NCBI RefSeq assembly: GCF_001442535.1
Contig: NZ_CP013141.1
Coordinates: 408,171-472,170, forward strand
DNA from: Lysobacter antibioticus
Lineage (GTDB): Bacteria > Pseudomonadota > Gammaproteobacteria > Xanthomonadales > Xanthomonadaceae
DNA: 64,000 bases
Reading direction: 5' to 3'
Part shown: one piece after another, positions 22,178 through 57,694 of the stretch
Numbering within the stretch: position 1 is the stretch's first letter
Layout: every line of letters starts with the position of its first letter
The notes under the pieces: model-generated
The model's database searches: none
The model's input: only the letters and a program-made list of their open reading frames with translations
What the model was told of the DNA's origin: nothing
Position numbers and translations under genes: made by a program

Positions 22178-22761
22178 GCCGCATCAGCGGAGTCCTCAGT
22201 ACGGGCTTGCCGCGATCAGCCTGCCGACCAGGTCGATGGGTTGAGGCGACAGCGGTCCGGGCTCAGGCAGGTCGCGCCGTGGCGGCCGAGCTCTTGCTTC
22301 CGTAGTCCGGCTTCGCGCTCGCGTTTCTTAGCGAACCAGTAACCGGCATCAGCCACGCCACGGCGCTGGAAGCTGAGATCAGGGCGGCCATGGTTCAGTG
22401 GGCGTGGCCTGATCGCCAGGGCCGAGTCGAGCCGTGAAGCGGCCTCGGCTCGGAACTGTTGATGGCCGATTGCCAGGTTGCTACCGTCTGCCAAAGAGCC
22501 AAGCGCCCCTTGAGCAAGGCTGCCACGACTGAGGCTTTCGGAAGGGTGTGCGAATGGCGAAGGGGAGCCCTGGAAACTGACGCGCTTGAGACGAGGCTTC
22601 TCGTGGGCACCTGACTGTTAACAGTGGCGCACAAGTCGCGCGGAGTGATATCCCGGCCTGCGGGCGAGAGTCCGGCACATGTTTGGATTTCTTCAGTTCC
22701 GCCTGATCTAATGGCCACCAGCCGTTGTGATTTGTGTGATGTGTCGCGAGAGGGATGCCGT
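22178..22761. other. mostly gene-free stretch with an attC-like relic
   Basis: About 580 bases. The only notable element is the attC-like segment at 22424-22465. The long minus-strand frame at 22395-22811 has no ribosome-binding site or recognisable product. Confidence 0.4.
22424..22465 (-). other. degenerate integron attC-like site
   Basis: The plus-strand text GAGCCGTGAAGCGGCCTCGG followed by CTCGGAACTGTTGATGGC closely follows the attC core at 45037-45096 (GAGCCGCGAAGCGGCTTCGG, then CTTGAATGAATTGTTAGGC). Outer boxes are poorly kept and no gene ends beside it, so it is likely a relic. Confidence 0.4.
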
Positions 22762-36159: not shown

Positions 36160-36546
36160 TTATGGCGAGGCCGCGTGGGCAGCGGCCGAGTCTGCGACTA
36201 GGCGTCGCATGTCCTCCGGCTGGAGAGCGATTCCTTGCAGCGTAAAGATGCGCTGGAAGGTGCCGTTAGTGTTGAACACCAGCATCACGCTCTTGGTCGA
36301 ACTGCTGACGTTGCCCGTCCAGATGCTCGACTTGCTCTGGATGTATGTCCAGGTGTGACCCACGGCGCCGCTCTGGCCCACTTGGGAGTCGTCGGCTGGG
36401 CGACCCAGCAACTTGGCTGCTTCAGCCAGCGTTGTCTGGCCGATCTGCAACTGCGACAAATTCGCCTCGTTGAACTCCTTGCCAATCGTGGCTTTAGCAC
36501 CGCACATCAGCAGCACTAGCAACAATGACCCGACGATCCGCATCAC
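36160..36546 (-). CDS. BamE/SmpA-like exported small protein (cassette gene)
   Basis: 128 residues with a signal segment (MMRIVGSLLLVLLMCGAKA; no full lipobox). The core LSQLQIGQTTLAEAAKLLGRPAD, HTWTYIQSKSSIW and SVMLVFNTNGTFQRI follows the BamE/SmpA fold (helix, then three strands with GxTxxEVxxLLGxP). It lies directly left of attC 36589-36647, as the next cassette in an array read on the minus strand. Periplasmic. Confidence 0.65.
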   Translation of the reverse strand: MMRIVGSLLLVLLMCGAKATIGKEFNEANLSQLQIGQTTLAEAAKLLGRPADDSQVGQSGAVGHTWTYIQSKSSIWTGNVSSSTKSVMLVFNTNGTFQRIFTLQGIALQPEDMRRLVADSAAAHAASP

Positions 36547-36588
36547 GACTTCTTCTCCTTGCGTAGTCCCCCCTGGGCTTTAGCAATA

Positions 36589-36647
36589 GCCCGGTGCTTG
36601 AATTAAGCTAAACCGAGACGCGGCGTCGGCTTGAATGATTGTTAGGC
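36589..36647 (-). other. integron attC site 1
   Basis: 59 bases. On the minus strand it begins with the box GCCTAAC, then AATCATTCAAGCCGACGCCG, a short symmetrical centre and TTAATTCAAGC, ending in ACCGGGC where the second box GTTAGGC is expected. The first box is perfect and the second is degenerate. It lies 18 bases beyond the stop of the serine hydrolase gene. Confidence 0.75.
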
Positions 36648-36665
36648 CGTGGTGGCCTAGAGGAT

Positions 36666-37733
36666 TCAGTTTGGTATCTGTCGCATGAGCTTGTACAGAT
36701 TATGTATGTCTGCGGGATGCCCCTGCTCCTTAAGTCCGCTGAATATTAGGAATCCAAGAATTGAATTTCCTGTGTCGCGACGATTCACCAGCGTCAGGTC
36801 GCGCTCGCGATCAATCAACAAATACTGACCACCCCAGCCGTCCGCATTCACGGTTCCGAGTTTTGAGTTCAACCACCAAGAGTGGCCAAACCCGTCATAG
36901 AACGGACTTTCGACGGCCGAAGATGCCGTGGTGCTCTTGTCGATCCACGCTGCTGAAATGATTCTTTTCTGATTCCACATGCCGTCTTGAGCCACCAGAG
37001 CCCCAAGCCGAGCAAGGTCGCGCGCGCTCATATGGATGCGATAGGTTCTGTAGTCAGACTCAGATCCCTTTCGATCATAAAGAACGTGCTCACGGTTGAA
37101 GTCTTGCATGCCCAGAGGGGCCGATAGCCAAGCGTCCAGGGCTTCTCCAATCGAAAGGCCGGTCTTCTTCTCGAAGATTTCACCTAGAACATTAAAGTCC
37201 CAGTTGTTATAGAAATAGTGCTCCCCTGGGGGAAACTGGCCGCGACGAGGACGGCCTTCTTTAATCTCAACCGTCTCCGCACCGGACTGAAGATAGATTC
37301 CCGACCGGGATTGCAGAAGATGCTCGACCGTTGCTTGCTTCTCGGTGCTCGTCAATGGCGTTCGACTTTCATCGATGCCAAGCTCTCCAAGCGTTTCGTT
37401 TAAGTCGATCAACCCGCGGTCGGATGCGATGCCGAACAACAAGCTGACGACACTCTTTCGTGCGGAGGCCAAGTTCATGGGGGCGTCGATCTTCCCGTAG
37501 TGCATCACGATCTTTTCGCCGCGCAATACAACGAATGCATCGATTGGATCCGCCTGCGTTTCGATGTACTTTCGAAGGCTGTCCGCCTGTTCCGGCAATA
37601 GCGGGGACTCCGCCAGCGGGACGGGGTTCGTTGCAGGTGCGTCTCGATCGACGAATGGGCGGAGCATTACAACAAGCGATATCGCAATGGTTGCGATCAG
37701 TGCAAAGCCCGAAATCTTCACGATGCGTCGCAT
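36666..37733 (-). CDS. serine beta-lactamase-like hydrolase (cassette gene)
   Basis: 355 residues from ATG 37733 (GGGGA upstream; ATG 37748 is also possible). An N-terminal signal-anchor (VKISGFALIATIAISLVVML) precedes a class C beta-lactamase-like domain with the Ser-x-x-Lys motif in NLASARKSVVSLLFG, a Tyr-x-Asn in YFYNNWDFNVLGE and a C-terminal GWGGQYLLID segment. These enzymes are esterases or peptidases of the penicillin-binding fold; true beta-lactamase activity is not implied. The attC follows immediately, making this a complete cassette. Confidence 0.8.
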   Translation of the reverse strand: MRRIVKISGFALIATIAISLVVMLRPFVDRDAPATNPVPLAESPLLPEQADSLRKYIETQADPIDAFVVLRGEKIVMHYGKIDAPMNLASARKSVVSLLFGIASDRGLIDLNETLGELGIDESRTPLTSTEKQATVEHLLQSRSGIYLQSGAETVEIKEGRPRRGQFPPGEHYFYNNWDFNVLGEIFEKKTGLSIGEALDAWLSAPLGMQDFNREHVLYDRKGSESDYRTYRIHMSARDLARLGALVAQDGMWNQKRIISAAWIDKSTTASSAVESPFYDGFGHSWWLNSKLGTVNADGWGGQYLLIDRERDLTLVNRRDTGNSILGFLIFSGLKEQGHPADIHNLYKLMRQIPN

Positions 37734-37909
37734 AGACAGGTTCCCCATTCGAGTTCCATGAGCTGGAGGAGATGGTTCTTCCACGGTCTAACGTATTTTA
37801 GACATCATGCCGGACGGCTCGATTTTCTGGCGTGAGGCCGACCGAATGGCCAGATGTGGGCATGAAGGGCGACGAATGCCTAATGCTGGATACCTGGTGG
37901 CGCGGAAGA

Positions 37910-38479
37910 TCACAACCATAGATGGGAATTCTTGCTGCAACAGAAGCGGGCAGGCAACCTGGCTGTTCGAAGAGGCCTAACGCCTGAACTAGGTGGAGCT
38001 GCGAAGCGGCTTCGGCTTGGATGAACCGTCAGGGGGGCAACATAACGCCAATACAGTACGTGCTGCCCGTCTTTCCGTACGGCAAGAGCCGACAGCAGCG
38101 GAACTCCTCCCGTCGCGGAACGTTCTGGGTAACTATAGAAATCGTAGTCGACCAGTTTTTCCGGTATCCACTCGCGATTGAACCCGAGCTCGTAAAACTC
38201 ACCCGCATCCGCAGCCCGGCACGACGAGGCCGGAGGCCTCCAATGCAACTTGGCCGGCAGACTAAAAGCCAGTGCGCTCTCGTTTGTATCGACGTTGTGC
38301 ACTTCGCTCAGGCGGGACGCCTCTGGCGGAATCCACGAAGGGATCCATCTCCTCTCCATGGCAGAAGCTGCCACTGCGTCAGCACTAGTCGCGTAAGTTA
38401 CGTCCTGCACGTCGTCCGTGCACGAGCATGCCAGCCAGACGAGAGCTGCAAATATTACCCATCGCGAGAAACTGTCCAT
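37910..38479 (-). CDS. lipoprotein whose frame reads through its attC (cassette gene)
   Basis: 189 residues from ATG 38479, which lies right next to the upstream attC, as expected for a cassette start. Signal MDSFSRWVIFAALVWLACSC with a lipobox-like LACSC. The body (WIPSWIPPEASRLSEVHNVD, YELGFNREWIPEKLVDYDFY, DGQHVLYWRYVAP) is unrecognised. After YWRYVAP the frame continues through the whole attC at 37975-38034 and stops in the next cassette at 37910, so the last 40 or so residues are encoded by recombination-site DNA. The frame start at 38542 would lie inside the neighbouring attC. Confidence 0.6.
   Translation of the reverse strand: MDSFSRWVIFAALVWLACSCTDDVQDVTYATSADAVAASAMERRWIPSWIPPEASRLSEVHNVDTNESALAFSLPAKLHWRPPASSCRAADAGEFYELGFNREWIPEKLVDYDFYSYPERSATGGVPLLSALAVRKDGQHVLYWRYVAPLTVHPSRSRFAAPPSSGVRPLRTARLPARFCCSKNSHLWL
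37975..38034 (-). other. integron attC site 2
   Basis: 60 bases on the plus strand from GCCTAAC (37975-37981) through GCCTGAACTAGG, the core GCGAAGCGGCTTCGGCTTGG, to GTCAGGG. The inner part is a strong imperfect palindrome. The box next to the following cassette is perfect; the gene-side box has GTCAGGG for GTTAGGC. Confidence 0.8.
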
Positions 38480-38480
38480 T

Positions 38481-38554
38481 GCTACCTGATACCGGAATCG
38501 TGCCGCGCTGCGAAGCGGGGCCGACAGAAAGTGGGTGCACATGATCCGTCAGGC
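38481..38554 (-). other. integron attC site 3
   Basis: 74 bases. On the minus strand it begins GCCTGAC, has the core GCCCCGCTTCGCAGCGCGGC and ends CAGGTAGC one base before the next cassette ATG. The TGA inside the first box is the stop codon of the preceding gene (38549-38551). Confidence 0.65.
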
Positions 38555-38857
38555 GCGAACGAATGTGATCGCAGCCGAGGCAAGTACCAAGATTATGGGC
38601 ACCATGATTGCCATGCGGTATCTCCTGCGCAACCGGCCAAACTGCGGCGCTGCTATCAGCAGCATGTGAGTCGTTGCCACTGTAGCCACGAGCGTAACGA
38701 TGGTTGGGTCGACCCACGATAGGTCGCCAGCAGCCGAGTACGGATCAGTGGGAAACCAGGCAATCGCCAGAAATAGGGCATACATCGCTACCGGCCAAGC
38801 CAGGCCGAGGGCGCAACCAAGTCGCAGGGACGCAGAGCGATGAAAAACGTTAAGCAC
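38549..38857 (-). CDS. small membrane protein, second gene of a two-gene cassette
   Basis: 102 residues from a GTG at 38857 with AAGGA upstream, overlapping closely the end of the preceding gene (stop at 38862). Three membrane helices: LGCALGLAWPVAMYALFLAIAWF, PTIVTLVATVATTHMLLIAA and MAIMVPIILVLASAAITF. Its stop codon is the TGA of the attC box GCCTGAC. Function unknown; coupling suggests it works with the exported protein encoded just before it. Confidence 0.6.
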   Translation of the reverse strand: MLNVFHRSASLRLGCALGLAWPVAMYALFLAIAWFPTDPYSAAGDLSWVDPTIVTLVATVATTHMLLIAAPQFGRLRRRYRMAIMVPIILVLASAAITFVRA

Positions 38858-38861
38858 CTGC

Positions 38862-39425
38862 TCATTCCTTGAAGGTGTTGATAGCCGTTGCCAGATGATT
38901 CGAGGGCCCAGTCCTGTCGGACATCTTGAGCGATGCTCGCGGCCAAGCGCAACGGGATGTCCGGACGCGGAGAGCCTCGGGCCGGTCGGCGTCGCCAACG
39001 GGAAGCTTTGGCGGATGCGAGATTCCCGACGGCGATGCCGATGTCGTAGAGACGTTCCGGAGGCTTGCACGCTCGCAGTCGATAGTCATGAGCTGGGAGT
39101 CAGGCGTGAAGTCGCTTCGGCTTTGCACAAGGATCTTCCGGGCGCGCCCGCTCCAGACTCGGCTGGTATGAGCATCTTTCTGGAGAGGGTCATCACCCTC
39201 GGCCACGCGGCAAACGTGCGCTTCTGGCAGCAGCACTGCAACTTCAGCGTTCGCCAGCGACACACAAGGTTCTTCTGCTTCGATCTTTAGATGAACCAGC
39301 TGGCCATTGCTTCGGAGGCGAGCATCTAGAACTTCGAGGCGCGCCCTTATCGTCATGGTATCGGCCGAGGCCTTGCTCATTAGTGCGGCAGAAACCACAC
39401 GAAATGCGAGAACCTTCAACGTCAT
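38862..39425 (-). CDS. exported protein, first gene of a two-gene cassette
   Basis: 187 residues. Signal-like N-terminus MTLKVLAFRVVSAALMSKASA, then a beta-rich segment (TIRARLEVLDARLRSNGQLVHLKIEAEEPCVSLANAEVAVLLPEA is in this region, shown as separate strands). The C-terminal third is Ser/Arg/Pro-rich. No family recognised. It ends five bases before the GTG of the membrane protein gene, so the pair is translated together. Confidence 0.5.
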   Translation of the reverse strand: MTLKVLAFRVVSAALMSKASADTMTIRARLEVLDARLRSNGQLVHLKIEAEEPCVSLANAEVAVLLPEAHVCRVAEGDDPLQKDAHTSRVWSGRARKILVQSRSDFTPDSQLMTIDCERASLRNVSTTSASPSGISHPPKLPVGDADRPEALRVRTSRCAWPRASLKMSDRTGPSNHLATAINTFKE

Positions 39426-39898
39426 GCGCAGCCGCTGACACGCACGCAGTAGGAATTCTCTGACAGCCAGTCGAGGCTCAGACTTACGCGTTGAGCAGAG
39501 TGGCGGCGTGGGGTGGGTGCTTGTTGGCGCTCATAGCGGCTCAGTTGGATGATCTGCAACTGACCGCATGTTGGAATGCGGCGCCGGCGCGGTGGCCCCG
39601 GTAAGTGGCTGATTTCGTGACCTTAGCTCTCGTTGCCACCGCGTAGACTTAACAGCGAGTGTCTGAGGCGGATATAGTGCAGCGGTTTGATGGGTGGCGA
39701 TAAGTCCTGTCGTTTTGCCAGCGAGCGTGTTGCTTGGTCTCGGGGCTGAAGTGCCGACCGAACGACGAGGTCGACGGACCAGCAGGATCGGATGGTCCTG
39801 CTTCCATCGCCGATGCAGTCGCTGCGCGGGGATTTGAACTGGGAAACTTCTCGCCACAGATTGCGACCATTCGATAGTCAGGAAACGGAGGATTCCCC
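39426..39898. other. gene-free stretch upstream of the DUF4189 gene
   Basis: About 470 bases. No attC core is recognisable here, although one would be expected right of the two-gene cassette. It should carry the promoter of the plus-strand DUF4189 gene. Minus-strand frames here read as shadows. Confidence 0.4.
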
Positions 39899-41128
39899 AT
39901 GGACTCGATGAAGAAGATTCTTGTGCTGCCCGCATTGCTGCTTCTGGGCTGGAGCGTCCAGGCGCGCGCGCAATGCTCGGTGGCCGGTGGCCAGCAACAA
40001 CAGCAGTGCATGCAGAATTTTGTGCAGAACGTAGTCGTGCCGTATCAGCAGGCGATACAGGCGGCAGCGCAGAATCAACCGCTGCCCCCGCCGGAGAGTC
40101 CGATGGAGGCGATGCAGGCCAGGGCCGGCGCACAAGCGCGCAAGGGGTGGGGCGCGATCGCGGCGTCGCCGGCGCTGGCGCAGGTCGGCATCGCCGGCGA
40201 TCTGGGCAGTCAACGCAAGGCAGAAAGCGCGGCGCTCAAGCAGTGCGCCGATCAGGGCGGCGAAGGCTGCACGCTCATGGCGAGCGCGAACAACGCCTGC
40301 ATCGCGGTGGCGTTCAACGCCGACAAGCAATTCGCCAGCGCGGTGGGCCAGGACGAGATCGCCGCCAGCCGCGACGCGCTGAGGGGCTGCAATGCGAAAA
40401 GTCCGGACAAGATCTGCAATCTGCGTAGCGAGCCGCTGTGCTCGGGCATCGCGGGCGGTTTGCTGCAAACCGACGGCATGAGCGCGCAGCAGCGCGCGCA
40501 TCTGTTTGAAATCGCTGGTGACGATCGACAGTTCTTCGGTGCGCTGGCCGGCAACGGTAAGGCCGTGTACTCGGCGGCGAACGCGCTGTCGCAGGCCGAT
40601 GCCGAGAAATCCGCGAAAGATCGTTGCACCGGGCCGGCGTGCAAGTTGATCGCGGCGCATAGCAATAGCTGCCTGGCGGCGGCGTGGCCGAAGAAAGGCG
40701 GCCCGCCGTTCGTGGCCGAAAGCTCCTATCCGGAAGCCGCGCGCGTGGATGCGCTGAGCCAGTGCGCCGCGGCGAACGGCGCCGGTTGTCTGGTGTCGGC
40801 GCCGAATTGCTCCGGCCGCGCATATTTCGACTACGACTATGCGCGCATCCACGCCGGCGCGAAGGCCGAAAGCGAGCGCAGTCGTCAAGCCGGCGCGGCG
40901 CTGCTCGAACCTTGGGTCGGCCGCACCGAAGCCGAGTTCCGCGCCCACTGGGGTTCGCCGTCGGCCACCACCGACATCCTGCAGGGCGAATCGAGGCTGA
41001 CCTATGAAAAGGGTTATCGCGGCAAGAATGGCGCAGAGCATGCCTGCAAGGTGGCGGTCTTCACCCGAGCGTATAAAGTCTTTTCTTACTTCACCGAGGG
41101 CGACGTTTGCGCGGACATCGTACGTTGA
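39899..41128 (+). CDS. exported protein with two DUF4189-like domains
   Basis: 409 residues, signal peptide KILVLPALLLLGWSVQARAQ and a Gln-rich start. The first DUF4189-type unit begins WGAIAASPALAQVGIAGDLGS and shows the typical spaced Cys (ALKQCADQGGEGCTLMASANNACIAVAF). A second, looser unit (YSAANALSQADAEKSAKDRC, CKLIAAHSNSCLAAAW) follows, and the C-terminal part (EPWVGRTEAEFRAHWGSP) resembles small periplasmic domains with a GxTxxEF motif. Codon use is GC-rich like the core genome, unlike neighbouring cassettes. It is transcribed against the array. Confidence 0.75.
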   Translation: MDSMKKILVLPALLLLGWSVQARAQCSVAGGQQQQQCMQNFVQNVVVPYQQAIQAAAQNQPLPPPESPMEAMQARAGAQARKGWGAIAASPALAQVGIAGDLGSQRKAESAALKQCADQGGEGCTLMASANNACIAVAFNADKQFASAVGQDEIAASRDALRGCNAKSPDKICNLRSEPLCSGIAGGLLQTDGMSAQQRAHLFEIAGDDRQFFGALAGNGKAVYSAANALSQADAEKSAKDRCTGPACKLIAAHSNSCLAAAWPKKGGPPFVAESSYPEAARVDALSQCAAANGAGCLVSAPNCSGRAYFDYDYARIHAGAKAESERSRQAGAALLEPWVGRTEAEFRAHWGSPSATTDILQGESRLTYEKGYRGKNGAEHACKVAVFTRAYKVFSYFTEGDVCADIVR

Positions 41129-41231
41129 GGCTCGCTGCCTGAAGCGCCATAGCACGGTATCGCTTGTGTGGTCTCAGCCGCGGAGGCAGCCCAAGCAACG
41201 ATGTCGCCGCAACTACTGCGCCCGAGCAGCA

Positions 41232-41744
41232 TCATGGCGGATCAAGGACAAGGTGAGGGCAGGAGTCGTCGGAGGCCACGCAGACTGACACCGGAGCGCC
41301 TAGCACTCCCGAGCGTGACACCGGCGTAATTTTCAACCTCCAACGAACGTGGCCATCTGCATCTCGCGAGATACCTGTCCAAGCCAAACTTACTGAGACT
41401 CTCCCCTTATAAGTTCGCAATGGAGCAAGCGGATACCTCGGGAGCAAACCTTCGTCCTTGACTCCCGTCTGAGCCTGAATTAAGACGCCGTAGCTATCTG
41501 TGTCGCGGGCGGAAGGGCCGGAAAGCTCAATTGTGATGAAGCCAACCCCGTCGCAGCTGTCACCGGCGGAGATCCAGGGGACGAAATTGACATCTCGTAC
41601 GCCGACCCGAGGCGGTTTCGCGGAAGCATGCTCGATGCCATCCACATGAAATTCCGACGACCTGTAAAGACTGCATGCCAGTCCCGTGTTGGGCAGCAGG
41701 GCTAACAGTGCGAGTGCAGGGAAGACTTTAGTCACGATTGTCAT
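41232..41744 (-). CDS. exported protein of unknown function (cassette gene)
   Basis: 170 residues. Signal peptide MTIVTKVFPALALLALLPNTG with Cys just after cleavage (LACSLYRS). The mature part is beta-rich (VGFITIELSGPSARDTDSYGVLIQAQ, YKGRVSVSLAWTGISRDADGHVRWRLKITPV) and ends CVASDDSCPHL. The ATG lies directly against the attC-like site 41745-41790, the position of a cassette start. No family recognised. Confidence 0.6.
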   Translation of the reverse strand: MTIVTKVFPALALLALLPNTGLACSLYRSSEFHVDGIEHASAKPPRVGVRDVNFVPWISAGDSCDGVGFITIELSGPSARDTDSYGVLIQAQTGVKDEGLLPRYPLAPLRTYKGRVSVSLAWTGISRDADGHVRWRLKITPVSRSGVLGAPVSVCVASDDSCPHLVLDPP

Positions 41745-41790
41745 GCGCTAGGATTGAGTCGCGAAGCGGCTTCGGCATGGGCCGTTGCTC
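41745..41790 (-). other. integron attC site 4 (degenerate)
   Basis: The plus strand reads GCGCTAGGATTGAGTCGCG then AAGCGGCTTCGGCATGGGCC and GTTGCTC. The core palindrome and GATTGAGTC flank are kept; both outer boxes are degenerate and the site is shortened to about 46 bases. Confidence 0.6.
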
Positions 41791-41840
41791 GAGGCTTCCA
41801 GGCGAGGCAACAGCGGAGTCCGAGATCGAAGACGCGGTTT

Positions 41841-42563
41841 TCATGCCTTAGACGGCACAGGCTGCGGCTTGGTAATGTCCTCGCGCAGTGTTTCTTCGAA
41901 CGTTCCAAAACAGCATTGCCGTCCGTACTGGCTCAATGAGAAGAGCGCGATCGCTTGCATATCCCGCTCAAAATCAGCCGGTAGCGGATGCGGAATTCGA
42001 CGACCAAGAATGTGGCTCTTCACCAGGTAGTCGAGCTGCCGCAGAAAATATTTTGGATCGCCGGCCAGTTCAGACGGGACCCATACCCGGTTTATCGTCA
42101 AACTATTGGACGTAGCGATGAAGCCGGCGGCATACATCAAAACGCCGGTCCAACTGCGGGAAAAGTACATGCGATCGCCATACAGATAGACGTCCCACTT
42201 ATCCTCCATTTGCTGCGCCTTGAACAGCGCGCCTTCAGCCACTTCGCCGGAAGGGTACGCGAGGCGACATTCGAGTTCGATCGCATTCTCCGGTAGCACG
42301 CCGATATGCTCCTGCCCCAGGCTGGCGCGAAGATTTGCGAAAGAGGTCGCGATACGTTCGTCCGCAGTAGTCGACCGCATGGTGCTGACGAACCTCAAAC
42401 AGTCGTAGCCCTCCACCGTGAATGGGTTACGCGGATCGTCCTTGGCCAACCAGCGTACAGGTTGCGATTCCTGTGTGGGAGCAGTCTCGGCGGATGAGGC
42501 CTTCTGTGCGGTTTCAGGTGTCGCCGGCTTCTTGCGGAACAGGTCGAGGACGGACTTGAGCAT
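41841..42563 (-). CDS. soluble protein of unknown function (cassette gene)
   Basis: 240 residues: a short amphipathic start (MLKSVLDLFRKKPA), a Thr/Ser/Ala-rich linker, then a folded part (NPFTVEGYDCLRFVSTMRST, CRLAYPSGEVAEGALFKAQQ, WDVYLYGDRMYFSRSWTGVLMYAA) ending near CFGTFEETLRED. No signal peptide, so probably cytoplasmic. No family recognised. It lies between attC 4 and attC 5. Confidence 0.65.
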   Translation of the reverse strand: MLKSVLDLFRKKPATPETAQKASSAETAPTQESQPVRWLAKDDPRNPFTVEGYDCLRFVSTMRSTTADERIATSFANLRASLGQEHIGVLPENAIELECRLAYPSGEVAEGALFKAQQMEDKWDVYLYGDRMYFSRSWTGVLMYAAGFIATSNSLTINRVWVPSELAGDPKYFLRQLDYLVKSHILGRRIPHPLPADFERDMQAIALFSLSQYGRQCCFGTFEETLREDITKPQPVPSKA

Positions 42564-43002
42564 GAGACGGAGTCGCTCCGGGTGAGTGAGGAACTTCTGC
42601 GATAGATGTCAATCTTCAGCCGGCATGTTGCGTTGGTAGTGCGAGACGTGAAGCGGCCTCGGCATGAATTAGTTGTTGCATCGGGCACGATGATGCTGAG
42701 CCTATGCCATACCGCTGAACTGGTCATGGTTGTCGAGACTCGATTTTACGAGTGGAACTCGACGAGATGACCTAGCTCCATCCGACTATATCAAGGCCAT
42801 CGCGAGCGGCGTAGTTTCGCCACCAGCAGACATGGCCCGCAGCGACCGCAGGCAAAAATCCGGCGCGTCAGTACGGTGGTTCACCGTAAGAACTGCCAAA
42901 GGATTGTCATGAGCGATCCGGTTACGTTACAAGACCCGCGCACGCATGGCGCTACCTCCGACGACAAGATCTTGTTGATCTCACTGCGGGCTGAGTCCGG
43001 CG
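42564..43002. other. intergenic stretch with attC 5 and the kinase promoter region
   Basis: About 440 bases. Apart from the attC at 42627-42679, no gene is visible; a frame starting at 42909 (MSDPVTLQDPRTH) runs only into the shadow of the kinase gene. A cassette gene expected right of attC 5 is missing. Confidence 0.45.
42627..42679 (-). other. integron attC site 5 (partly degenerate)
   Basis: Plus-strand text GTTGCGTTGGTAGTGCGAGA followed by CGTGAAGCGGCCTCGGCATG and AATTAGTTGTTGC. The core and the ATGAATT flank match the other sites; the outer boxes do not. Confidence 0.6.
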
Positions 43003-44538
43003 ATGACCAGCCCGAGCACCGGCAGCAGCATCGTGATCGGGATGCGCCGCACCCAGCTCGGCCCCTTGATTAAGAGAGGCGGCGCCGGCAGCGTGTACCT
43101 GCTGCCGGACTATCCCAATAGCGTCGCCAAGATCTACCACGCCCGCGTCGATCCGCCGAGCTACACTGATCGCATCGAAGCCATGCTGCAGTTGCGCCCG
43201 CAATTGCCGGACCAGATCGAAGGCGACAAACGCTACGTGCAGATCGCCTGGCCCGACGCGACGGTGCGCGACGCTCGCGGCCGCTTCGCCGGCTTCACGA
43301 TGCCCGTATTGGACGTGGATGCGACCTCGGAATTGGAACAAGTCCTGCAGGAGCGCCAAGCGCGCGCAGCCGGTTTGCCGGTCGGGTTGGGTCGCAAAGT
43401 CACCTTGGCGGCGAATCTGGCGTCGGTGCTCGCAGCCTTGCATACGCAGCATCATTACGTGGTCGATCTCAAGCCGGTGAACCTGCGTTTCGATCGCGCC
43501 TCGCTCCACATCGCCTTGCTCGACTGCGACGGTTTCAGCATCCAGGGTCGCGGCCGACGATTCCACGCGCCGCAGTACACGCCCGATTATCTGGCGCCGG
43601 AATACCAGACCCACTCCCTGGACGAAACCGGCGAGGAAACCCAGGACCGCTTCGCCCTGGCGGTGGTGATCTTTCAGCTGCTGAATTTCGGGATCCATCC
43701 GTACAGCGGACGGCCTGCGCACGATAGCGTGCCGACCGACGTGCCCGGCCGTATCCGCGGGCGTTGCTATGCCTACGGACGCAGCGGCAATTCTTCCATG
43801 CTGCCGAACCCGGTCAGCGCGCACGCGATGATGCCGGTACGGTTGCGCGATCTGTTCGACCGCGCGTTCAGCGACGCGCCGGCGGCGCGGCCGAGTTCGG
43901 GGGAATGGGGCAATGCGTTGCGCCTATATGCGCAGCCTTCGCGCGGGCTGATCGTGGTGTGCGACAGAAATCGCGAACATCAGCATTACGTTGGACAGAG
44001 CTGCGCTTCGTGCGTGCGCGAGGAACTGCTGACGCGCGCCGCGCGTAACGCCAAGTCGCGACCAAAACCGCAGCCGCCGGTCGATCGGATGGCGGCCTCG
44101 CGCACGGGCCGGCAGGCTTACGCGCCCGCGCCATCGCAAGCGCCGGCTCAGATGCCGCCGTCCTATGGCATGCCGCCGGCCGCATCGCCGCACACTAGTC
44201 TGCCCACGCACAGGCCGCGTTTCGCCAGCTCCATGCCCGTGTTGATGTTGTTGATGGTGCTGGCGCTGCCGGGGGCGATCGCAGTCATCGCTGCGTATTA
44301 CGGTGGAGCTGATGCGGACTACTCTCCCGGCGGTGGTTGCTCTTGGCTTACCCCAGACGGTAGATACGGTCCCACGCAAGCCTCGCCGCAACCATGCCGC
44401 CAGTGTCCATGCACGCGCAGAGAGATGGATGAATTTATTCAATCGCGGATTCAGACCGATGTGCATACGCTCCCTGCTATACGCGTATCGGCCGACGAAG
44501 CGGTGCTGGACCCGCGTCCTCCAGGCGGCATTGAATGA
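43003..44538 (+). CDS. membrane-anchored protein kinase-like protein
   Basis: 511 residues. The N-terminal 300 are a eukaryote-like kinase: glycine loop KRGGAGSVYLL near 25-35, Lys in SVAKIYH, a catalytic loop VVDLKPVNLRFD near 152-163 (D-L-K-P-x-N) and DCDGF in place of DFG near 174. A Pro/Gln-rich linker leads to one membrane helix (VLMLLMVLALPGAIAVIAAY, about 410-430) and a short Cys-containing periplasmic tail. It is GC-rich and transcribed against the array. Partner phosphatase or VWA genes, often found with this type, are not in the window. Start uncertain; an in-frame ATG at 43042 is an alternative. Confidence 0.8.
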   Translation: MTSPSTGSSIVIGMRRTQLGPLIKRGGAGSVYLLPDYPNSVAKIYHARVDPPSYTDRIEAMLQLRPQLPDQIEGDKRYVQIAWPDATVRDARGRFAGFTMPVLDVDATSELEQVLQERQARAAGLPVGLGRKVTLAANLASVLAALHTQHHYVVDLKPVNLRFDRASLHIALLDCDGFSIQGRGRRFHAPQYTPDYLAPEYQTHSLDETGEETQDRFALAVVIFQLLNFGIHPYSGRPAHDSVPTDVPGRIRGRCYAYGRSGNSSMLPNPVSAHAMMPVRLRDLFDRAFSDAPAARPSSGEWGNALRLYAQPSRGLIVVCDRNREHQHYVGQSCASCVREELLTRAARNAKSRPKPQPPVDRMAASRTGRQAYAPAPSQAPAQMPPSYGMPPAASPHTSLPTHRPRFASSMPVLMLLMVLALPGAIAVIAAYYGGADADYSPGGGCSWLTPDGRYGPTQASPQPCRQCPCTRREMDEFIQSRIQTDVHTLPAIRVSADEAVLDPRPPGGIE

Positions 44539-44657
44539 CCGCGCGATACGGCGGGCGCCTATGCGGCGCAAGCTGGCGGCGAGTAAAGGTTCAGCGTCTT
44601 CAACAAGGTGCGCTAAATTCAGCTGCCGCCGTTGGCATGCCGTGCAGCTATTCAGCC

Positions 44658-44718
44658 GCATCAGTTCAACCTCCAAGCCGAGCCGCGAAGCGGCTTCGGC
44701 TTGAATGAAGTGTCAGGC
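44658..44718 (-). other. integron attC site 6
   Basis: 61 bases with the core GAGCCGCGAAGCGGCTTCGG, flank CTTGAATGAA and outer box GTCAGGC (44712-44718). The distal box is GCATCAG in place of GCCTAAC. The TGA stop of the cassette gene to the right (44713-44715) lies inside the box. Confidence 0.8.
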
Positions 44719-45021
44719 GTCACCGGTTGGCTCCGGCATCACCCAAGCATCACGATACTCCTGTGTTGGATGCTGGAACTTAGGATAAGTTTGCCAATAG
44801 CGCTCCCCATAGATGCGAAGCATAGCCCAGTGCCATGCCTCGTCATGGAAGATTAGCCCTCGCAGGTCGCCAGGCTCCTCGTAGGGATAGAACGCAAGAG
44901 CTGCATCACGAGCATTCGTCGCCGAAAGAGATCCGTAGTAGTGGAGAACCCAGGCGAACATGCGGCGCTCGTGCGCCAAATACGCGAAGTACTCCGCCTC
45001 TGTCCAATCCTGAGTTTCCAT
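44713..45021 (-). CDS. small aromatic-rich soluble protein (cassette gene)
   Basis: 102 residues, no signal peptide, very rich in Trp and Tyr: METQDWTEAEYFAYLAHERR, MFAWVLHYYGSLSATNA, YPYEEPGDLRGLIFHDEAWH, WAMLRIYGERYWQTYPKF. Helical in outline. It fills an attC-to-attC interval of about 320 bases exactly and is the cleanest cassette in the window. No family recognised. Confidence 0.7.
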   Translation of the reverse strand: METQDWTEAEYFAYLAHERRMFAWVLHYYGSLSATNARDAALAFYPYEEPGDLRGLIFHDEAWHWAMLRIYGERYWQTYPKFQHPTQEYRDAWVMPEPTGDA

Positions 45022-45036
45022 GGAAATCGGTGTAGC

Positions 45037-45096
45037 TCCTAACGCCTGAATTGAGTCGAGCCGCGAAGCGGCTTCGGCTTGAATACTTCGTCCGCC
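45037..45096 (-). other. integron attC site 7
   Basis: 60 bases: TCCTAAC (45037-45043), GCCTGAATTGAGTC, the core GAGCCGCGAAGCGGCTTCGG, CTTGAAT, and GTCCGCC at the gene side. This is the best preserved inner palindrome in the array. The start of the previous gene follows 16 bases to the left. Confidence 0.85.
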
Positions 45097-45186
45097 CTGG
45101 TGTGCGGTCTATCAGAAGGCCTTGGAAAGAAGCTTCGACCCGTGTTTTGGTCAAGTTGGCCGGAATATTCCATTCGCGCCGCCGCG

Positions 45187-45894
45187 TTACTGGGCACACT
45201 GCTTGAGTTTCTGGATAACCGGCGCGGCCTCTGCCCATTGGATCGCCATCGCCGTTTTCCCATCGATCGACAACTTGAAAGTCTGTTGATCGCGCATGCC
45301 GTCCAGCGCCGCAGCCAGTCCAGGCACGGCGAACGCGATCGCTCCGGCCCTGCCTTGATATCTGTAGCTGAACACCTGGACGGCTTGAGCAGGTTCATTG
45401 TCTTGCTGAAGCGTGATGTTTATTTTCCTGACCTTTTTCGGCTGCGGGAGTCCCGTGCCGTAAAAAATAAGCCAGGCATCGGGCTTGGGTTTCTGAAACC
45501 CCATGATGCTGACGATGCCGCCGCTTGTGCCGTTGTCCGCGCTTGTCAATTTGGCGAATGAAGCAGTGCATAGCTTGCCTTCAGGCGTTGAACTAGATGC
45601 GGAGAACCAAATGCCCTTGGCCACTTCCTGGGCGATTCGTGCATCCCTTTGGTCCTTTTCGGCCTGGAGTTTTTTCATATTTTCCACTTCCTCTGGAGTC
45701 ATGGAGCGCACCGGCGCGCGATCCCTGGGTCCCAGGGAATCCAGGTAATCATTCTTCTCGCGAATCCAGTCGTCCATGCTGTATTCGTACGGCGGGCTGC
45801 AACCATTGCCGTCGTACAGCATGCCTGTCGGGCAGGCTCCTGCCTGGAATGGTAGGGCCAGGAAAACAAAAAATGACGCACTAAGTATTTTCAT
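45187..45894 (-). CDS. exported protein of unknown function (cassette gene)
   Basis: 235 residues. Signal peptide MKILSASFFVFLALPFQAGA with a Cys following. A charged helical segment with coiled-coil character (TPEEVENMKKLQAEKDQRDARIAQEVAKG) precedes a beta-rich C-terminal domain (CTASFAKLTSADNGTSGGIVSIMGF, WLIFYGTGLPQPKKVRKINITLQ, FKLSIDGKTAMAIQW) ending KLKQCAQ. The end of the domain (regulatory strand, Cys near the C-terminus) recalls small secreted domains of invasion-associated proteins, but the match is weak. Flanked by attC 7 and attC 8. Confidence 0.65.
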   Translation of the reverse strand: MKILSASFFVFLALPFQAGACPTGMLYDGNGCSPPYEYSMDDWIREKNDYLDSLGPRDRAPVRSMTPEEVENMKKLQAEKDQRDARIAQEVAKGIWFSASSSTPEGKLCTASFAKLTSADNGTSGGIVSIMGFQKPKPDAWLIFYGTGLPQPKKVRKINITLQQDNEPAQAVQVFSYRYQGRAGAIAFAVPGLAAALDGMRDQQTFKLSIDGKTAMAIQWAEAAPVIQKLKQCAQ

Positions 45895-45895
45895 A

Positions 45896-45945
45896 TTGTG
45901 TTTTCCGCATTTTGGAAGTGCCTTGGCTCGAATGAATTGTTAGGC
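45896..45945 (-). other. integron attC site 8 (half-preserved)
   Basis: The gene-side half is intact on the plus strand (TTGGCTCGAATGAATTGTTAGGC region, with a perfect GTTAGGC at 45939-45945). The central palindrome is replaced by CCGCATTTTGG and the distal box is unclear. Confidence 0.6.
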
Positions 45946-46274
45946 CTGCGCCCAGTAGTCACTTAGGCTCCGGCTTGAAATCAAACTCAACACCAAGCCC
46001 GGCCATCGCCGCCGCAGCCTTTTTGCACCCGCCTTCAGCGACTAGCGTCGCCGGTCTCGCAATCGATGATGAAACCGGCCAGGCGGCTGGGGTGGGCCAT
46101 TTTGTTGCTCCGGGCAGTGGATTCGCTGCCAGATTGCCGCGCTGTCGGGCCGCGCGGAAGTGCACGTGTCGCCGATTCGGCAGATCGCGGGCAACAAGCC
46201 CGCCAAGTGGCGGGCTTGTTGCGTGATGGGATCGACTTAATTATGGTCCCTTTGTTTCCCTACAAGCCGAGGTT
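45946..46274 (-). pseudogene. coding remnants between attC 8 and the IS30 element
   Basis: A minus-strand frame at 46035-46100 reads MAHPSRLAGFIIDCETGDAS, like the start of VOC/glyoxalase-fold proteins, and stops. Another frame ending at 45959 carries VAEGGCKKAAAAMAGLGVEF and DFKPEPK, resembling a genuine C-terminus. Between the two frames lies at least one shift, so this is probably a decayed cassette gene. The hairpin at 46191-46222 lies upstream of it. Confidence 0.4.
46191..46222. repeat. perfect 15-bp hairpin
   Basis: GCAACAAGCCCGCCA and its exact complement around a 2-base loop. There is no T-run on either side. It could be a terminator for the lipoprotein gene disrupted by IS30, whose original stop lay just upstream. 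Its ends ...CAAC and GTTG... echo attC boxes but it lacks the mismatched bases attC needs. Confidence 0.55.
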
Positions 46275-47413
46275 TGCACTGTCAACGTCTAAGTGCAGCA
46301 AACGAGTCGAAAACACTCTGACGAACCTTCGCAGCTAACTCAGGCATGCCCAGCTCACGCAAGAACACCACCGCCGGGAATTGATAGCCCAACGACGCCC
46401 GTGGCCGCGTGTTGAACTCATGAGCGATTCGATCCAATTGCCGTTGCGTGTAGCCCGACAGATCGGTGCCCTTCGGAAAATATTGCCGGAGCAGACCGTT
46501 GGTGTTCTCGCAGATGCCGCGCTGCCAAGGACTGCTTGGGTCAGCGAAGTAGACCGATACGTTGGTGCGCTGGGTCAATACCCGATGCAGCGCCATCTCC
46601 TTGCCCTGGTCGTAGGTCAGCGTCTGCCTCGCCGATAGCGGCAAACGACGCAGCACCCGGCTGAATCCCTCCAGCGCGTCAGCGGCCGTGCAACCACGCA
46701 TCCGCGCCAGCACCGTGAACAGGGTCTTGCGGTCCACCAGCACGCCGATCGCCGAAGCGTTGCGTGCGCCGACCAGGAAATCGCCTTCCCAGTGGCCGGG
46801 CACCAGGCGTTCGGTGGCGGCGGGCGGACGCAGGTGAATACTCTGCACATCCAGCATCCGACCGCGCCGCTCCGGGCCCCGTGCGGACGAATGGCGGGCA
46901 GCGCGCTGCTGCTTCAGTAAACGAGTCAGCTCCCGCCGAATGGGGCCACGGGGCATGGCATAAATCGCCGTATAGATGGTCTCGTGCGACACCCGCCACT
47001 CCGGTCGGTCAGGATATTCTTCGCGCAGTCCCTGGCTGATCTGACGTGGCGACCAATAACGTGCCAGTCGCCGCTGCACCTCCAGCCACAAGGCACTGTC
47101 GGCGCTCAGCTTGCGCTCGCGTCGCGCTCGACGGCGCAAGCGCCGCGCCCGTTCGCCAGCACGAACCGCATCATAGCCTCGCCGGGGTCGACCCAGCGCC
47201 GGGGTGGGCCCCGGCGTACGCACCCCATTGCGGGCCAATTCGCGCGACACGCTGCTATCGGCACGCCCCAACATTCGGGCGATAGCGCGGCCGCTATGGC
47301 CATGCTGCTTCATGGCCATGAGCACACCGCGTTCTTCGGCGCTGAAGTGGCTGTACTGGGTTCCCATGCGCTGACCTCAAGGGTGGGTGATGCGCTTGAG
47401 GTTAGACAGTGCA
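46275..47413 (-). mobile_element. IS30-family insertion sequence, intact
   Basis: About 1.14 kb. The ends are inverted copies of TGCACTGTC followed by similar AAC-CT-AAG segments (TGCACTGTCAACG left; TGCACTGTCTAACC right, read inward). A GTT triplet lies directly outside each end (46272-46274 and 47414-47416), the 2-3 bp target duplication typical for IS30. It carries one transposase gene. Confidence 0.85.
46282..47367 (-). CDS. IS30-family transposase
   Basis: 361 residues, full length. An N-terminal helix-turn-helix (HFSAEERGVLMAMKQHGHSG, RAIARMLGRADSSVSRELARN), then the IS30-type linker with RPPAATERLVPGHWEGDFLVG, and a DDE integrase core with the acidic residues in WEGDFLVGA, DRKTLFTVL and the ENTNGLLRQYFPKGTDL motif characteristic of the family. 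The frame is intact, so the element could still be active. Confidence 0.95.
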   Translation of the reverse strand: MGTQYSHFSAEERGVLMAMKQHGHSGRAIARMLGRADSSVSRELARNGVRTPGPTPALGRPRRGYDAVRAGERARRLRRRARRERKLSADSALWLEVQRRLARYWSPRQISQGLREEYPDRPEWRVSHETIYTAIYAMPRGPIRRELTRLLKQQRAARHSSARGPERRGRMLDVQSIHLRPPAATERLVPGHWEGDFLVGARNASAIGVLVDRKTLFTVLARMRGCTAADALEGFSRVLRRLPLSARQTLTYDQGKEMALHRVLTQRTNVSVYFADPSSPWQRGICENTNGLLRQYFPKGTDLSGYTQRQLDRIAHEFNTRPRASLGYQFPAVVFLRELGMPELAAKVRQSVFDSFAALRR

Positions 47414-49160: not shown

Positions 49161-49535
49161 CTACGCGGGCTGCAGTCCACCAACCCGTTCGGGAATGCAT
49201 TGCCAAAATGCGCGGGGAAATCCGCATTCCGTCTGCGACCATTCCCGCCAGTCGGGATTCACCGACTCGACCAAGCGGCGTTGCCAACGATGCGGCCAAC
49301 TTCGGATCTGTGCGGCTCGCTCGCATGCCGCCGCGTGGGTCTGGGTTCGCTCAAGCCAAACCAAGCAGAAAGGGAACAGAGTGCGGTCACCGGTACGACA
49401 CTCTCGTTGAAAATGCACTTCTCGGACTTCACGCACGACCTCAGCGAGCTCCCCACCCACACCGACCACATACGGGCCGGCGCGCTGATCGGCGAGAAGG
49501 TAGACCATGTACGGTCCCGTGGTTCCGCGTTGCAT
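49161..49535 (-). CDS. degenerate GIY-YIG nuclease-like protein
   Basis: 124 residues from ATG 49535 with GGAGA 6 bases upstream. GPYMVYLLADQRAGPYVVGV corresponds to the GIY...YIG strands (MVY for GIY, YVVG for YIG), and ERTQTHAAACERAAQIRSWPHRWQRRLVESVNPDW matches the conserved helix EAIxREKQIKxWxRxxKxxLIxxxNPxW in pattern. The usual catalytic Arg and Glu positions are altered in part, so activity is uncertain. It starts 20 bases after the preceding exported-protein gene. Confidence 0.7.
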   Translation of the reverse strand: MQRGTTGPYMVYLLADQRAGPYVVGVGGELAEVVREVREVHFQRECRTGDRTLFPFCLVWLERTQTHAAACERAAQIRSWPHRWQRRLVESVNPDWREWSQTECGFPRAFWQCIPERVGGLQPA

Positions 49536-49554
49536 TCGACTTCTCCAAGCGATC

Positions 49555-50511
49555 TTATCCGCCAGGCCCCGTTTTCCTCGTCGGCAAGGGAGCGCCACTG
49601 GCAGGATCGGTACGAGGTTCCTCGCCCTTTCCGAATCTGGACAACGCCAACTGGGTTGCTTGGGTGGCTGCCTTGTAGTTCAAATAGTTGGTCAAGGTGT
49701 AGCCAGCCAGAAAAGTGTAAACCTCGGTGCTGCCATCCTTGGATACGACTTTGCCCAGGCGACTCCAGCCTTTGTCCGGTTTCCTTGGGTCAAAAGTCCA
49801 TACATCTCCGTACCCATCGGCCTGCTGATTTACTTTATTCGTTTCAATCCAGCTGGTTAACTCCTTGTTGCCGTCTAGCGGATATATCGCGATATTGGCG
49901 CTCCGTGATCGTGCGGGTGGCATTTTGGATATATCGATGCCAGGACCGATCTGATCCCAAAGGATTGGAGCGGGCTCATCACTGTAATCGGTGGCACTGA
50001 GAGTCCAATGTGAACCCCCGTCCATGCTTGGGGATATGATCATTCTCGTTGGAACCAAAGCTCCGTCTCCGGCCCAGACAAAGCTGACAAACTTCTGCTG
50101 CTTGTCAGGTAGAATTTCCCGGCTGGTCATTCCGCGCGGCGGGTGATCTGCCATGTCACCGAACTCTCCCAGGACGCCAGTAATCTCGCGAGGGAGGATG
50201 TACATATAGCAGCGCGAGTACTCGTTCCGGAAGAAAACATAATCTCCGTCTAACGTGCGCCAGCTGTCACCTATTTCCCGAATGCCAACCAGCCTGGCTT
50301 CATCTCCTTTCAGGCGTGTGCCTGCCTTATCCAACGCCTTGGCAAATTCGTCTGGCTTCGATCGAAGCACAAGGCAATGATCATGAAAAAGCTTGATGGC
50401 ATGTTTGGCGTCGGAGTCGTTGTCAGGTGAGGCCGCTTGCACTGCCCCACAGCAAGCAATCAAAAAAAGTAGGGCGGCGAGGCGAATGCGCATTTTTTTC
50501 ATCGTTGACAT
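49555..50511 (-). CDS. exported protein of unknown function
   Basis: 318 residues. Signal peptide MKKMRIRLAALLFLIACCGA (preceded by MST). The mature part is a mixed alpha/beta protein (DHCLVLRSKPDEFAKALDKA, GDSWRTLDGDYVFFRNEYSRC, SPSMDGGSHWTLSATDYSDE, GYGDVWTFDPRKPDKGWSRL). The SMDGG/WTL pieces hint at a beta-propeller-like or sialidase-like pattern but are too sparse to claim. It precedes the GIY-YIG gene on the same strand. Confidence 0.65.
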   Translation of the reverse strand: MSTMKKMRIRLAALLFLIACCGAVQAASPDNDSDAKHAIKLFHDHCLVLRSKPDEFAKALDKAGTRLKGDEARLVGIREIGDSWRTLDGDYVFFRNEYSRCYMYILPREITGVLGEFGDMADHPPRGMTSREILPDKQQKFVSFVWAGDGALVPTRMIISPSMDGGSHWTLSATDYSDEPAPILWDQIGPGIDISKMPPARSRSANIAIYPLDGNKELTSWIETNKVNQQADGYGDVWTFDPRKPDKGWSRLGKVVSKDGSTEVYTFLAGYTLTNYLNYKAATQATQLALSRFGKGEEPRTDPASGAPLPTRKTGPGG

Positions 50512-50690
50512 TTTCCTTTGTCGAGCCGGTTCTCATTTCATTGCAGATGGGATGTCATACGCGGTCAGGCAGGATTGCTTTCCGAGCCAGAGGTGCGCGC
50601 CACCAGCTGCGCCAACTGACTTCATCCCTCACTATGAACTCAGGCTTCGACAACTGGGCGACTAATTGGAGTACACAGTAGCTCCTCCGA

Positions 50691-55980: not shown

Positions 55981-56288
55981 CATTGGCCAGTGCTGGAGGG
56001 GCCGACCGCGAACCTACGGGGAAACATCGGCGCTCTGCCAATGATCGTAAGTTGCGGCACTCTTTTGATGTCAAAAGATCAAAAAACCGGACTTCGTAAG
56101 TGCCTGAATTTTAAGGGGCAAGCAATGGTCGGCCGACCAAAGGCTTGGAGAAAAAGGCCTGGAGAGAGGCGAAAAAAATCGCCAAATGACCTGTCTGTGG
56201 ATAACTCGCCGGCCAATGGGGAACGCCAAAAGCCTCGGAGTAAGGCCTGCTCGTCGTTGCGACGGGGCGTAGAAAAAATCGAGGGGGA
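55981..56288. other. short intergenic stretch before tRNA-Arg
   Basis: About 300 bases of comparatively AT-rich sequence (runs of A near 56070-56090 and 56140-56180). No gene or duplicate of the tRNA end is visible. It lies downstream of both flanking genes. Confidence 0.4.
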
Positions 56289-56365
56289 TGGCGCGCCTGG
56301 AGGGATTCGAACCCCCGACCAATGGCTTCGGAAGCCACTACTCTATCCGGCTGAGCTACAGGCGC
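56289..56365 (-). tRNA. tRNA-Arg (anticodon CCG)
   Basis: 77 bases including an encoded CCA. The minus strand starts GCGCCTGTAGCTCAGCC, the anticodon loop is CTTCCGAAG (CCG), the T-loop region is GGTTCGAATCC and the 3' acceptor GGCGCGCCA pairs with the 5' end. All four arms form. It reads CGG codons. The 3' end faces the accessory region. Confidence 0.97.
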
Positions 56366-57553: not shown

Positions 57554-57694
57554 TCGCGGGCGCTCGTTGACGAGGATTGCCGCGGAGATCGGCCCGGGAA
57601 TCGGCTAGAGCGGGCCGCGAGTGCGTGATCGCGGTTAATGACAGGGGCGCGCCGCTGGCGTGCAATGGCGGATCGTCCCCAGTGGAGTGCCGTC

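Follow-up and report, generated by a model that had tools for sequence, protein, structure and literature searches.

Layout of the region

The window (the whole 64,000-nt stretch of Lysobacter antibioticus DNA analysed) carries, at 36160..45945, a series of mostly minus-strand ORFs interspersed with attC sites in a single orientation. The genes of this region, with an insertion element and a tRNA gene to its right, are as follows; attC sites are lettered a to h from left to right.

36160..36546, minus: BamE-like ORF at the left end (20.8 bits, under the cut-off of 23.2); no attC was found past it
36666..37784, minus: serine hydrolase, PF00144 fold (97.1 bits); stop 18 bp ahead of attC a
37910..38542, minus: ORF lipoprotein-like by eye, reading through attC b
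39899..41128, plus: DUF4189 gene (PF13827, 81.6 bits)
41232..41744, minus: ORF of 170 aa, hydrophobic N-terminus by eye
41841..42563, minus: cassette ORF of 240 aa, no Pfam family; weak sites at both ends
43003..44538, plus: kinase-like gene (Pkinase 29.3 bits, under the cut-off of 31.7), reading against the orientation of the attC sites
44713..45021, minus: cassette gene of 102 aa; start 15 bp past attC g, stop within attC f
45187..45894, minus: cassette gene of 235 aa without a Pfam family, its N-terminus hydrophobic by eye; stop 90 bp from its attC
46275..47413, minus: IS30-family insertion (NF033563, 272.8 bits), right of half-site h
56289..56365, minus: tRNA-Arg(CCG), close to where the conserved right flank begins

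An arrangement in which each ORF runs towards its own attC fits 44713-45021, 45187-45894, 41841-42563, and 36666-37784. It does not fit the two plus-strand genes or the read-through ORF at 37910-38542. The first-pass annotation had starts and stops abutting attC sites throughout: 44713-45021 bears this out well, as does the stop of 36666-37784, but 39899-41128, 43003-44538, 37910-38542, and the distant stop of 45187-45894 do not.

The protein from 44713-45021 has relatives in Montanilutibacter (81%) and in Nonomuraea and Streptomyces (54-60%), one of which is annotated in its source as DinB family; that from 45187-45894 has them in Hydrogenophaga, Acinetobacter, and Methylotenera, and DNA relatives less than 1.2 kb from attC sites in two other Lysobacter genomes (G010 and G002). 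A generic attC scan near the distant relatives of 45187-45894 (loci L080 and L081) gave nothing convincing; this is no evidence of absence, because the same scan missed the sites of L025. A protein search with 41841-42563 returned 173 proteins, itself counted. The kinase-like gene has a 92% copy flanked by attC cores in G010, while further copies are 76-84% identical and, in the two of their loci that were retrieved (L074 and L075), stand without linked attC at E <= 0.1. Nor was attC seen near the fetched homologues of 36160-36546, of 36666-37784 (72-73% identical, in four genomes), or of 39899-41128 (87%, in G019).

attC sites

A covariance model of attC (R1) was built from eight sites, none from the window. 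It places four minus-strand sites in 36160..45945, each with E < 1e-7 (a, b, f, and g below).

22413..22468, minus: solo attC, outside 36160..45945 and inside the conserved left flank; 27.6 bits, E 1.9e-5
36588..36648, minus: site a; core degenerate, R' lost, R'' GCCTAAC intact; 35.4 bits, E 9.6e-8
37974..38035, minus: site b, well-formed, with GTTAGGC at R' and 2 mismatches at R''; 50.9 bits, E 2.8e-12
38483..38543, minus: site c, attC-like, weak; 17.1 bits, E 0.024
41754..41775, minus: core d, weak; core match exact; 14.5 bits, E 0.14
42647..42663, minus: core e, with 2 mismatches and without model support
44668..44719, minus: site f, with an intact core and one short arm; 44.2 bits, E 2.6e-10
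45036..45097, minus: site g, well-formed, with GTTAGGA at R' and 3 mismatches at R''; 50.4 bits, E 3.7e-12
45919..45946, minus: half-site h, a single side followed by truncation; 16.3 bits, E 0.039; reads GCCTAACAATTCATTC

The attC array reported in the first-pass annotation is thus real, and its single orientation is borne out by all four supported sites, but the count given there, five well-formed and three degenerate, was too high: two are well-formed (38.0 and 45.0 kb), one is short-armed (44.7 kb), one is degenerate (36.6 kb), and the rest are weak or unsupported. The core CGCGAAGCGGCTTCGGC, allowing up to three mismatches, matches 13 times in the window against 1.17 expected, a number reached in none of 100 shuffles; seven of the 13 lie inside 36160..45945. 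Genome-wide, the 23-base core at the same tolerance gives 19 matches versus one for a reversed control. Two cores, 42647-42663 and 39105-39121, have no R1 match even at E <= 10.

The strong sites form two pairs, 36588/37974 and 44668/45036. Because the 6.6 kb between the pairs holds only weak sites, these may be two clusters rather than one; the answer hinges on the distance rule and on the weak sites. The default distance in IntegronFinder is 4 kb.

Applied to 20 loci fetched around IntI matches in other genera of the same family (19 with IntI above cut-off, one partial), R1 found attC in every one, with up to 88.8 bits for sites beside IntI. The motif of the window is therefore attC, and of the Xanthomonad type, as the first-pass annotation had proposed. 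Group IIC introns in attC were considered, as a GC-rich inverted stretch, similar in each case, comes after the attC cores of L029, L031, and L032. Rfam at gathering thresholds gave no introns in seven loci, however, and when nine sources were scanned for long ORFs containing a reverse-transcriptase box, two matches came up, both in L026 and both chance-like; the idea was dropped.

Decay of the sites

The conserved outer boxes of attC are RYYYAAC and GTTRRRY. None of the five sites checked (a, b, c, f, and g) has both in the expected register: a, b, and f match at one box of the two, with the register shifted in f; at g there is one mismatch in R' and three in R''; c matches at neither. A strict scan of the whole window that required both boxes and applied a folding filter returned a single pair, 44771-44664, longer than the site it encloses. 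Compared with shuffles, plus-strand folding gave z of -4.10 for f, -1.63 for a, -1.29 for b, and -0.71 for g, so the two best-scoring sites, b and g, fold little better than shuffled sequence. A site from another array of this genome gave -1.67, and a consensus site from the sister genome G011 gave -6.09, or -6.59 on its other strand; this G011 site thus folds equally well either way, and no strand preference emerges. Because its sites are outscored in the attC model by 227 of 263 sites beside IntI, the window cluster looks, on sequence scores, like a decaying relic. Sites b and g do retain GTT at R'.

Genomic setting

The cluster sits between flanks shared by the window genome (G000) and the nearest species compared (G001). 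These flanks are 85-93% identical, and the solo attC at 22413-22468 falls in a gap (22365-22484) of their alignment. The interval between them is 32.7 kb in the window (23338-56070) versus 6.9 kb in G001; at E 1e-8 the two intervals share no sequence, and they have no cassette in common, although attC sites are present in the G001 interval as well. The tRNA-Arg(CCG) gene adjoins the same flank in G001, G002, G008, and G016, with attC within 2 kb on the array side in the first three. A search of the 20 family loci gave no match to the proteins of the window flanks.

The interval might instead consist of islands and IS elements accreted beside tRNA-Arg, its attC having come in larger segments and not by cassette integration at this place; this is possible, if somewhat doubtful. 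The interval is missing from the corresponding place in G001 and carries both the IS30 element, which has five more copies in the genome and does not interrupt the G008 counterpart, and an HTH_21 fragment; parts of it have paralogs elsewhere in the genome, at 5.58-5.60 Mb. A 235-bp piece of the flank, with 38 bp of the tRNA end, has also been displaced in G007, where it lies away from tRNA-Arg and has three attC sites and a tRNA-Met as neighbors, with attC on the opposite side compared to the window; the G007 tRNA-Arg itself (L135) has no attC in 19 kb. Such accretion is harder to reconcile with the lack, left of the tRNA in the window, of any same-direction match of at least 12 bases to the tRNA end, and with the recurrence of attC near this tRNA in three other species although the rest of the interval differs.

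The missing integrase

The genome is a single contig, 99.99% complete. With the TIGR02249 cut-off as criterion, there is no intI in the window, as previously noted, nor in the genome as a whole. A 284-aa Lysobacter IntI (P0001) used as query gave only matches at a level common to all 20 Lysobacter genomes compared; these matches are taken for Xer recombinases. A TIGR02249 match at 1712722 was rejected as an intI remnant: the ORF, of 135 aa, looks like a generic tyrosine recombinase, and P0001 does not match it at E <= 1e-5.

The chromosomal integron of G011 (L042) shares its attC consensus and orientation with the window cluster, with cassettes on the strand opposite intI. Its intI, apparently short at the N-terminus (model positions 33-314), lies beyond the attC sites on the side corresponding to the right of the window, where the first-pass annotation had expected an integrase. 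It stands between the array and acnB, a place where the window genome has no attC. Arrays at acnB occur in four of the 20 genomes (G011, G012, G013, and G018); in the other 16, the window genome included, acnB and the far flank are within ~1.6 kb of each other with no attC at E <= 0.1. The idea that acnB once housed an integron in the window genome was set aside; in all 16, an empty site may reflect either loss or original absence. In the 20 family loci, of about 17 kb or less each, acnB was not found.

A permissive tblastn with IntI at the acnB-side array ends of G012, G013, and G018 gave only matches with E of 0.13 or worse. G012 and G018 share the acnB-adjacent junction and some distal cassettes, the remainder being mostly different. 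Because sites on the acnB side are decayed and inner ones fresh, intI may once have been located deeper in the arrays, with separate loss; loss before the two split, with later turnover, is a candidate alternative.

The region is very probably a CALIN, that is, Xanthomonad-type attC sites and cassettes that lost, or never adjoined, an integron integrase, because attC sites are present in a near-complete genome without intI. This was the name proposed in the first-pass annotation. Cassette proteins with relatives in distant genera count in its favor, as do the shared flanks and tRNA with attC in other species and the spread of attC without IntI through the genus. Against it are the presence of only two well-formed sites, the lack of a checked site with both boxes in register, the modest folding of b and g, the gap between the two strong pairs, the homologues in loci where attC was not seen, the plus-strand orientation of two genes, and the ORF that runs through attC b. 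Cassettes would have been placed by IntI acting on attC; the integrase gene is not found in the genome; the sites have drifted, with lowered scores and lost boxes; at least one IS element has entered; and the cassette genes would persist as ordinary chromosomal genes, whose movement would require IntI in trans.

Whether such movement still occurs, by an integrase supplied from plasmids or transient strains, is a separate matter, and we consider it distinctly unlikely. The absence of common cassettes between such similar flanks in G000 and G001 would fit continued exchange, as would the GTT retained at R' in b and g and the wide occurrence of IntI on plasmids; differential loss accounts equally well for the difference in content, however, the low scores of the window sites are as expected under disuse, and the best 5000 plasmid matches are all below 60% identity to the Lysobacter IntI.

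Weakest is the proposal of a dispersed hairpin repeat (a REP-like element or terminator) merely resembling attC: the core of the motif does form a hairpin, repeats of other kinds are plentiful in these genomes, and nine of the 27 R1 matches in this genome (E <= 1) are scattered single copies, but it is highly improbable because of the linkage to IntI, both in the 20 family loci and in the 72 sites of the only Lysobacter genome of the 20 with intI, and the supported window sites share one orientation and are mostly intergenic. The other 18 matches fall in three clusters, that of the window and two more, and are not the dispersed repeat, unrelated to gene boundaries, that the first-pass annotation had named as its counter-case.

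Relation to known integrons and the genus

In Xanthomonas, according to PMC12444791, CALINs are present in about half of genomes, at recurrent loci away from intI and outside ilvD; intI is often inactivated and, where present, nearly always beside ilvD. The Lysobacter case is alike in having attC clusters without neighboring intI at recurrent chromosomal places; it differs in that 19 of 20 genomes have no intI over the cut-off and in that the recurrent place is the neighborhood of tRNA-Arg(CCG). A study of Xanthomonadales-type attC, from the same order, sorts attC types and resistance cassettes, lists Lysobacter among the genera with such sites, and reports a chromosomal integron in Lysobacter oculi; its available text describes neither the present locus nor a genus-wide loss of intI (PMC8352920). 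The window cluster is an addition to a CALIN type already published, and the integrase-less situation is known in related bacteria.

What the locus adds is a well-bounded integrase-less cassette cluster, and an indication that scattered CALINs can mark loci common to several species. The genus-scale case is more useful: attC is present in 18 of the 20 Lysobacter genomes and the integrase is nearly gone, IntI above cut-off occurring in one of the 20 versus 132 of at most 189 other family members. G012 and the single-contig G013 have 59 and 33 attC matches, respectively, with near-consensus sites and no intI. This opens a testable question: are arrays dynamic without a resident integrase? That Lysobacter, as sampled by these 20 genomes, is an almost integrase-free genus still keeping and reshuffling its attC clusters, with traffic dependent on visiting integrases, is an unlikely but conceivable reading; if true, large near-consensus arrays without intI, as in G012 and G013, would be its visible trace.

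attC sites

The region at 36160..45945 is a decayed CALIN (a cluster of attC sites and cassettes without the integron integrase gene, intI), and the first-pass annotation, which had described a cassette array here, is judged both to have picked out a real feature and to have interpreted it correctly. The window spans bases 408171-472170 of the single 5.77-Mb contig of a 99.99% complete genome (G000). A core sequence taken from it has 13 matches in the window (1.17 expected), seven of them inside the region, and 19 genome-wide, against one with a reversed control.

To avoid circularity, an attC covariance model (R1) was built from eight sites outside the window, seven from an array at 4.796-4.803 Mb and one from 2.857 Mb. 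With filters off, this independent model recovers four minus-strand sites in the region and a solo site outside it:

attC sites matched by R1 in the window
37974-38035, minus strand, attC b, 50.9 bits
45036-45097, minus strand, attC g, 50.4 bits
44668-44719, minus strand, attC f, 44.2 bits
36588-36648, minus strand, attC a, 35.4 bits
22413-22468, solo attC outside the region, 27.6 bits

Three more candidates in the region are weak, with R1 E-values of 0.02-0.14. Two cores, 42647 and 39105, have no R1 match at E ≤ 10 in the unfiltered window search. None of the five sites checked (a, b, f, g, and the weak c at 38483-38543) has an intact in-register pair of outer boxes. In single-stranded folding, only site f is clearly better than shuffled sequences (z -4.10; b, -1.29; g, -0.71; consensus site of the Lysobacter genome G011, -6.09). 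The solo site falls in a ~120-bp gap of the alignment to G001, the nearest species compared (acnB 97% identical), in an otherwise conserved flank.

R1 was also run on the loci surrounding 20 of the 132 IntI matches in other genera; 16 loci are from single-contig genomes, and 19 of the IntI matches are over the TIGR02249 cut-off, that of G127 being partial. Every locus has at least one attC match at E ≤ 0.001, for a total of 263; as judged by reading, the direction of intI correctly predicts the side and strand of all but one, the exception being a palindromic second call in one locus (L098). Scores exceed 70 bits at 155 of these sites and 51.5 at 227, compared to 50.9 for the best window site. 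The window sites are therefore genuine attC, in the weak tail of the score distribution.

In the whole genome, with 150 of 2196 first-look candidates scored, R1 has 27 matches at E ≤ 1; the count at E ≤ 0.001 is 21. Eighteen of the 27 are grouped, at 0.44-0.45, 2.86-2.87, and 4.80 Mb; the remainder are single. The cluster at G000:C1:4796014-4802871 (L025) is better preserved, with ten sites by core search, two of which (4797708 and 4802854) have an upstream flank in common, suggesting a duplicated cassette; a third cluster (L026 and L043, G000:C1:2856633-2873641) is looser and on the plus strand. At three loci (L029, L031, L032), a GC-rich inverted stretch shared by all three (ATCGAGGGG...CCCCTCGAT) comes after the attC cores, and L031 and L032, 1.6 Mb apart, are identical over ~108-base stretches around two sites. 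The stretch G000:C1:5584491-5591184, a few kb from attC sites at 5.595 Mb, has segments paralogous to window 39323-39802 and 49453-53582.

Genes of the region

There are 11 ORFs in 36160-45894, two of which overlap. In Pfam, a PF00144 serine hydrolase fold and DUF4189 score over cut-off, and a BamE-like and a kinase-like match fall under it; by eye, about half of the 11 have a hydrophobic N-terminus. The best-bounded cassette, 44713-45021, starts 15 bp past one attC and stops within the next. Relatives of its protein are found in Montanilutibacter (81%) and in Nonomuraea and Streptomyces (54-60%); a search with 45187-45894 returned 107 proteins, including ones from Hydrogenophaga (75%), Acinetobacter (52%), and Methylotenera. 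ORF 37910-38542 is open through a whole attC site, predicting a protein with an attC-encoded tail. The protein clusters (100%) for 44713-45021 and 41841-42563, P0109 and P0136, include a contig of 5,916,388 bases, suggesting that another, larger chromosome may carry both cassettes.

Two compared genomes link region genes to attC: DNA relatives of 45187-45894 in G010 and G002 have attC sites at most 1.2 kb away, and a 92% copy of the kinase-like gene in G010 is placed between attC cores. Counted against these links, the stretches fetched for 36666-37784 homologues (from four genomes) and for those of 39899-41128 and 36160-36546 contain no attC. Most of the larger genomes, G000 included, have copies of the kinase-like gene (76-84%), and the two copies fetched have no attC at E ≤ 0.1.

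Chromosomal context

Window 1-23337 and 56071-62376 align in order to one G001 contig, in blocks of 85-93%. The interval between these conserved flanks is 32.7 kb in G000 vs. 6.9 kb in G001. Nothing in the shorter interval matches the window at E ≤ 1e-8, although matches to window 33361-35871 at 69-72% do occur in other parts of the same contig. In the fetched G001 locus (L117), the interval has attC sites at 7214 and 12803 and an attC core at 12269, in the same relative orientation as in the window.

The right flank, which includes tRNA-Arg(CCG), was used as a query against five relatives. An attC is found less than 2 kb from the tRNA, on the array side, in G001, G002, and G008, the last two each with one further attC deeper in and in opposite orientation. 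G016 has no attC at E ≤ 0.01 in 40 kb, and G007 none in 19 kb by its tRNA-Arg; in G007, a relocated 235-bp piece of the flank has three attC sites next to it, opposite to the array side. These three (L134:7037-9612) are between tRNA-Met and the 235-bp piece, which includes 38 bp of the tRNA-Arg end. G010 has only ~210 bp of flank in common, 1.6 kb from attC sites.

Integrase distribution

The integrase reported missing from the window was not found elsewhere in G000, a single-contig genome, either: no IntI exceeds the TIGR02249 cut-off, and sub-cut-off matches are also present in 14 of 14 control genomes. Among the 20 Lysobacter genomes examined (the name here stands for these 20; strains so named in papers may belong to other genera), only G011 has an IntI over cut-off, and with this protein as query the other 19 yield only matches at a level common to all. 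An attC array adjoins acnB in G011, G012, G013, and G018, with intI between them only in G011; the other 16 genomes have acnB and the far flank together, with no attC. At L041:6740-7240, between acnB and the next gene, there are GTAGGAGCGGCGCAAGCCGCGAC-type repeats, of another kind.

A draw of 198 genomes from the family includes 133 with a match at E ≤ 1e-50 and 130 over cut-off. At least nine of the 198 are Lysobacter, a count that leaves out 45 genomes with no match, so that matches outside the genus number 132 of at most 189 genomes. Fisher's test (1/20 vs. 132/189) gives 1.3e-8, a descriptive value because the genomes are related. By contrast, when 150 candidates are scored in each genome, attC sites at E ≤ 0.001 are found in 18 of the 20 Lysobacter genomes, which have between 1 and 72 apiece.

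In Xanthomonas, according to PMC12444791, 93% of 707 genomes have integron features, intI nearly always adjoins ilvD, and about half have CALINs at other recurrent loci. The same paper places intI in Lysobacter sp. CECT 30171. In PMC8352920, Lysobacter is one of the genera with Xanthomonadales-like attC, and a chromosomal integron is reported in Lysobacter oculi; these papers show that some strains named Lysobacter do have integrons. PMC7148499 is not relevant here. Among the titles listed by a literature search, none concerned Lysobacter integrons as such, although they may be described elsewhere. The CALIN here is another case of an already known kind of element; the more interesting part of the finding is how differently attC and intI are distributed in the genus.
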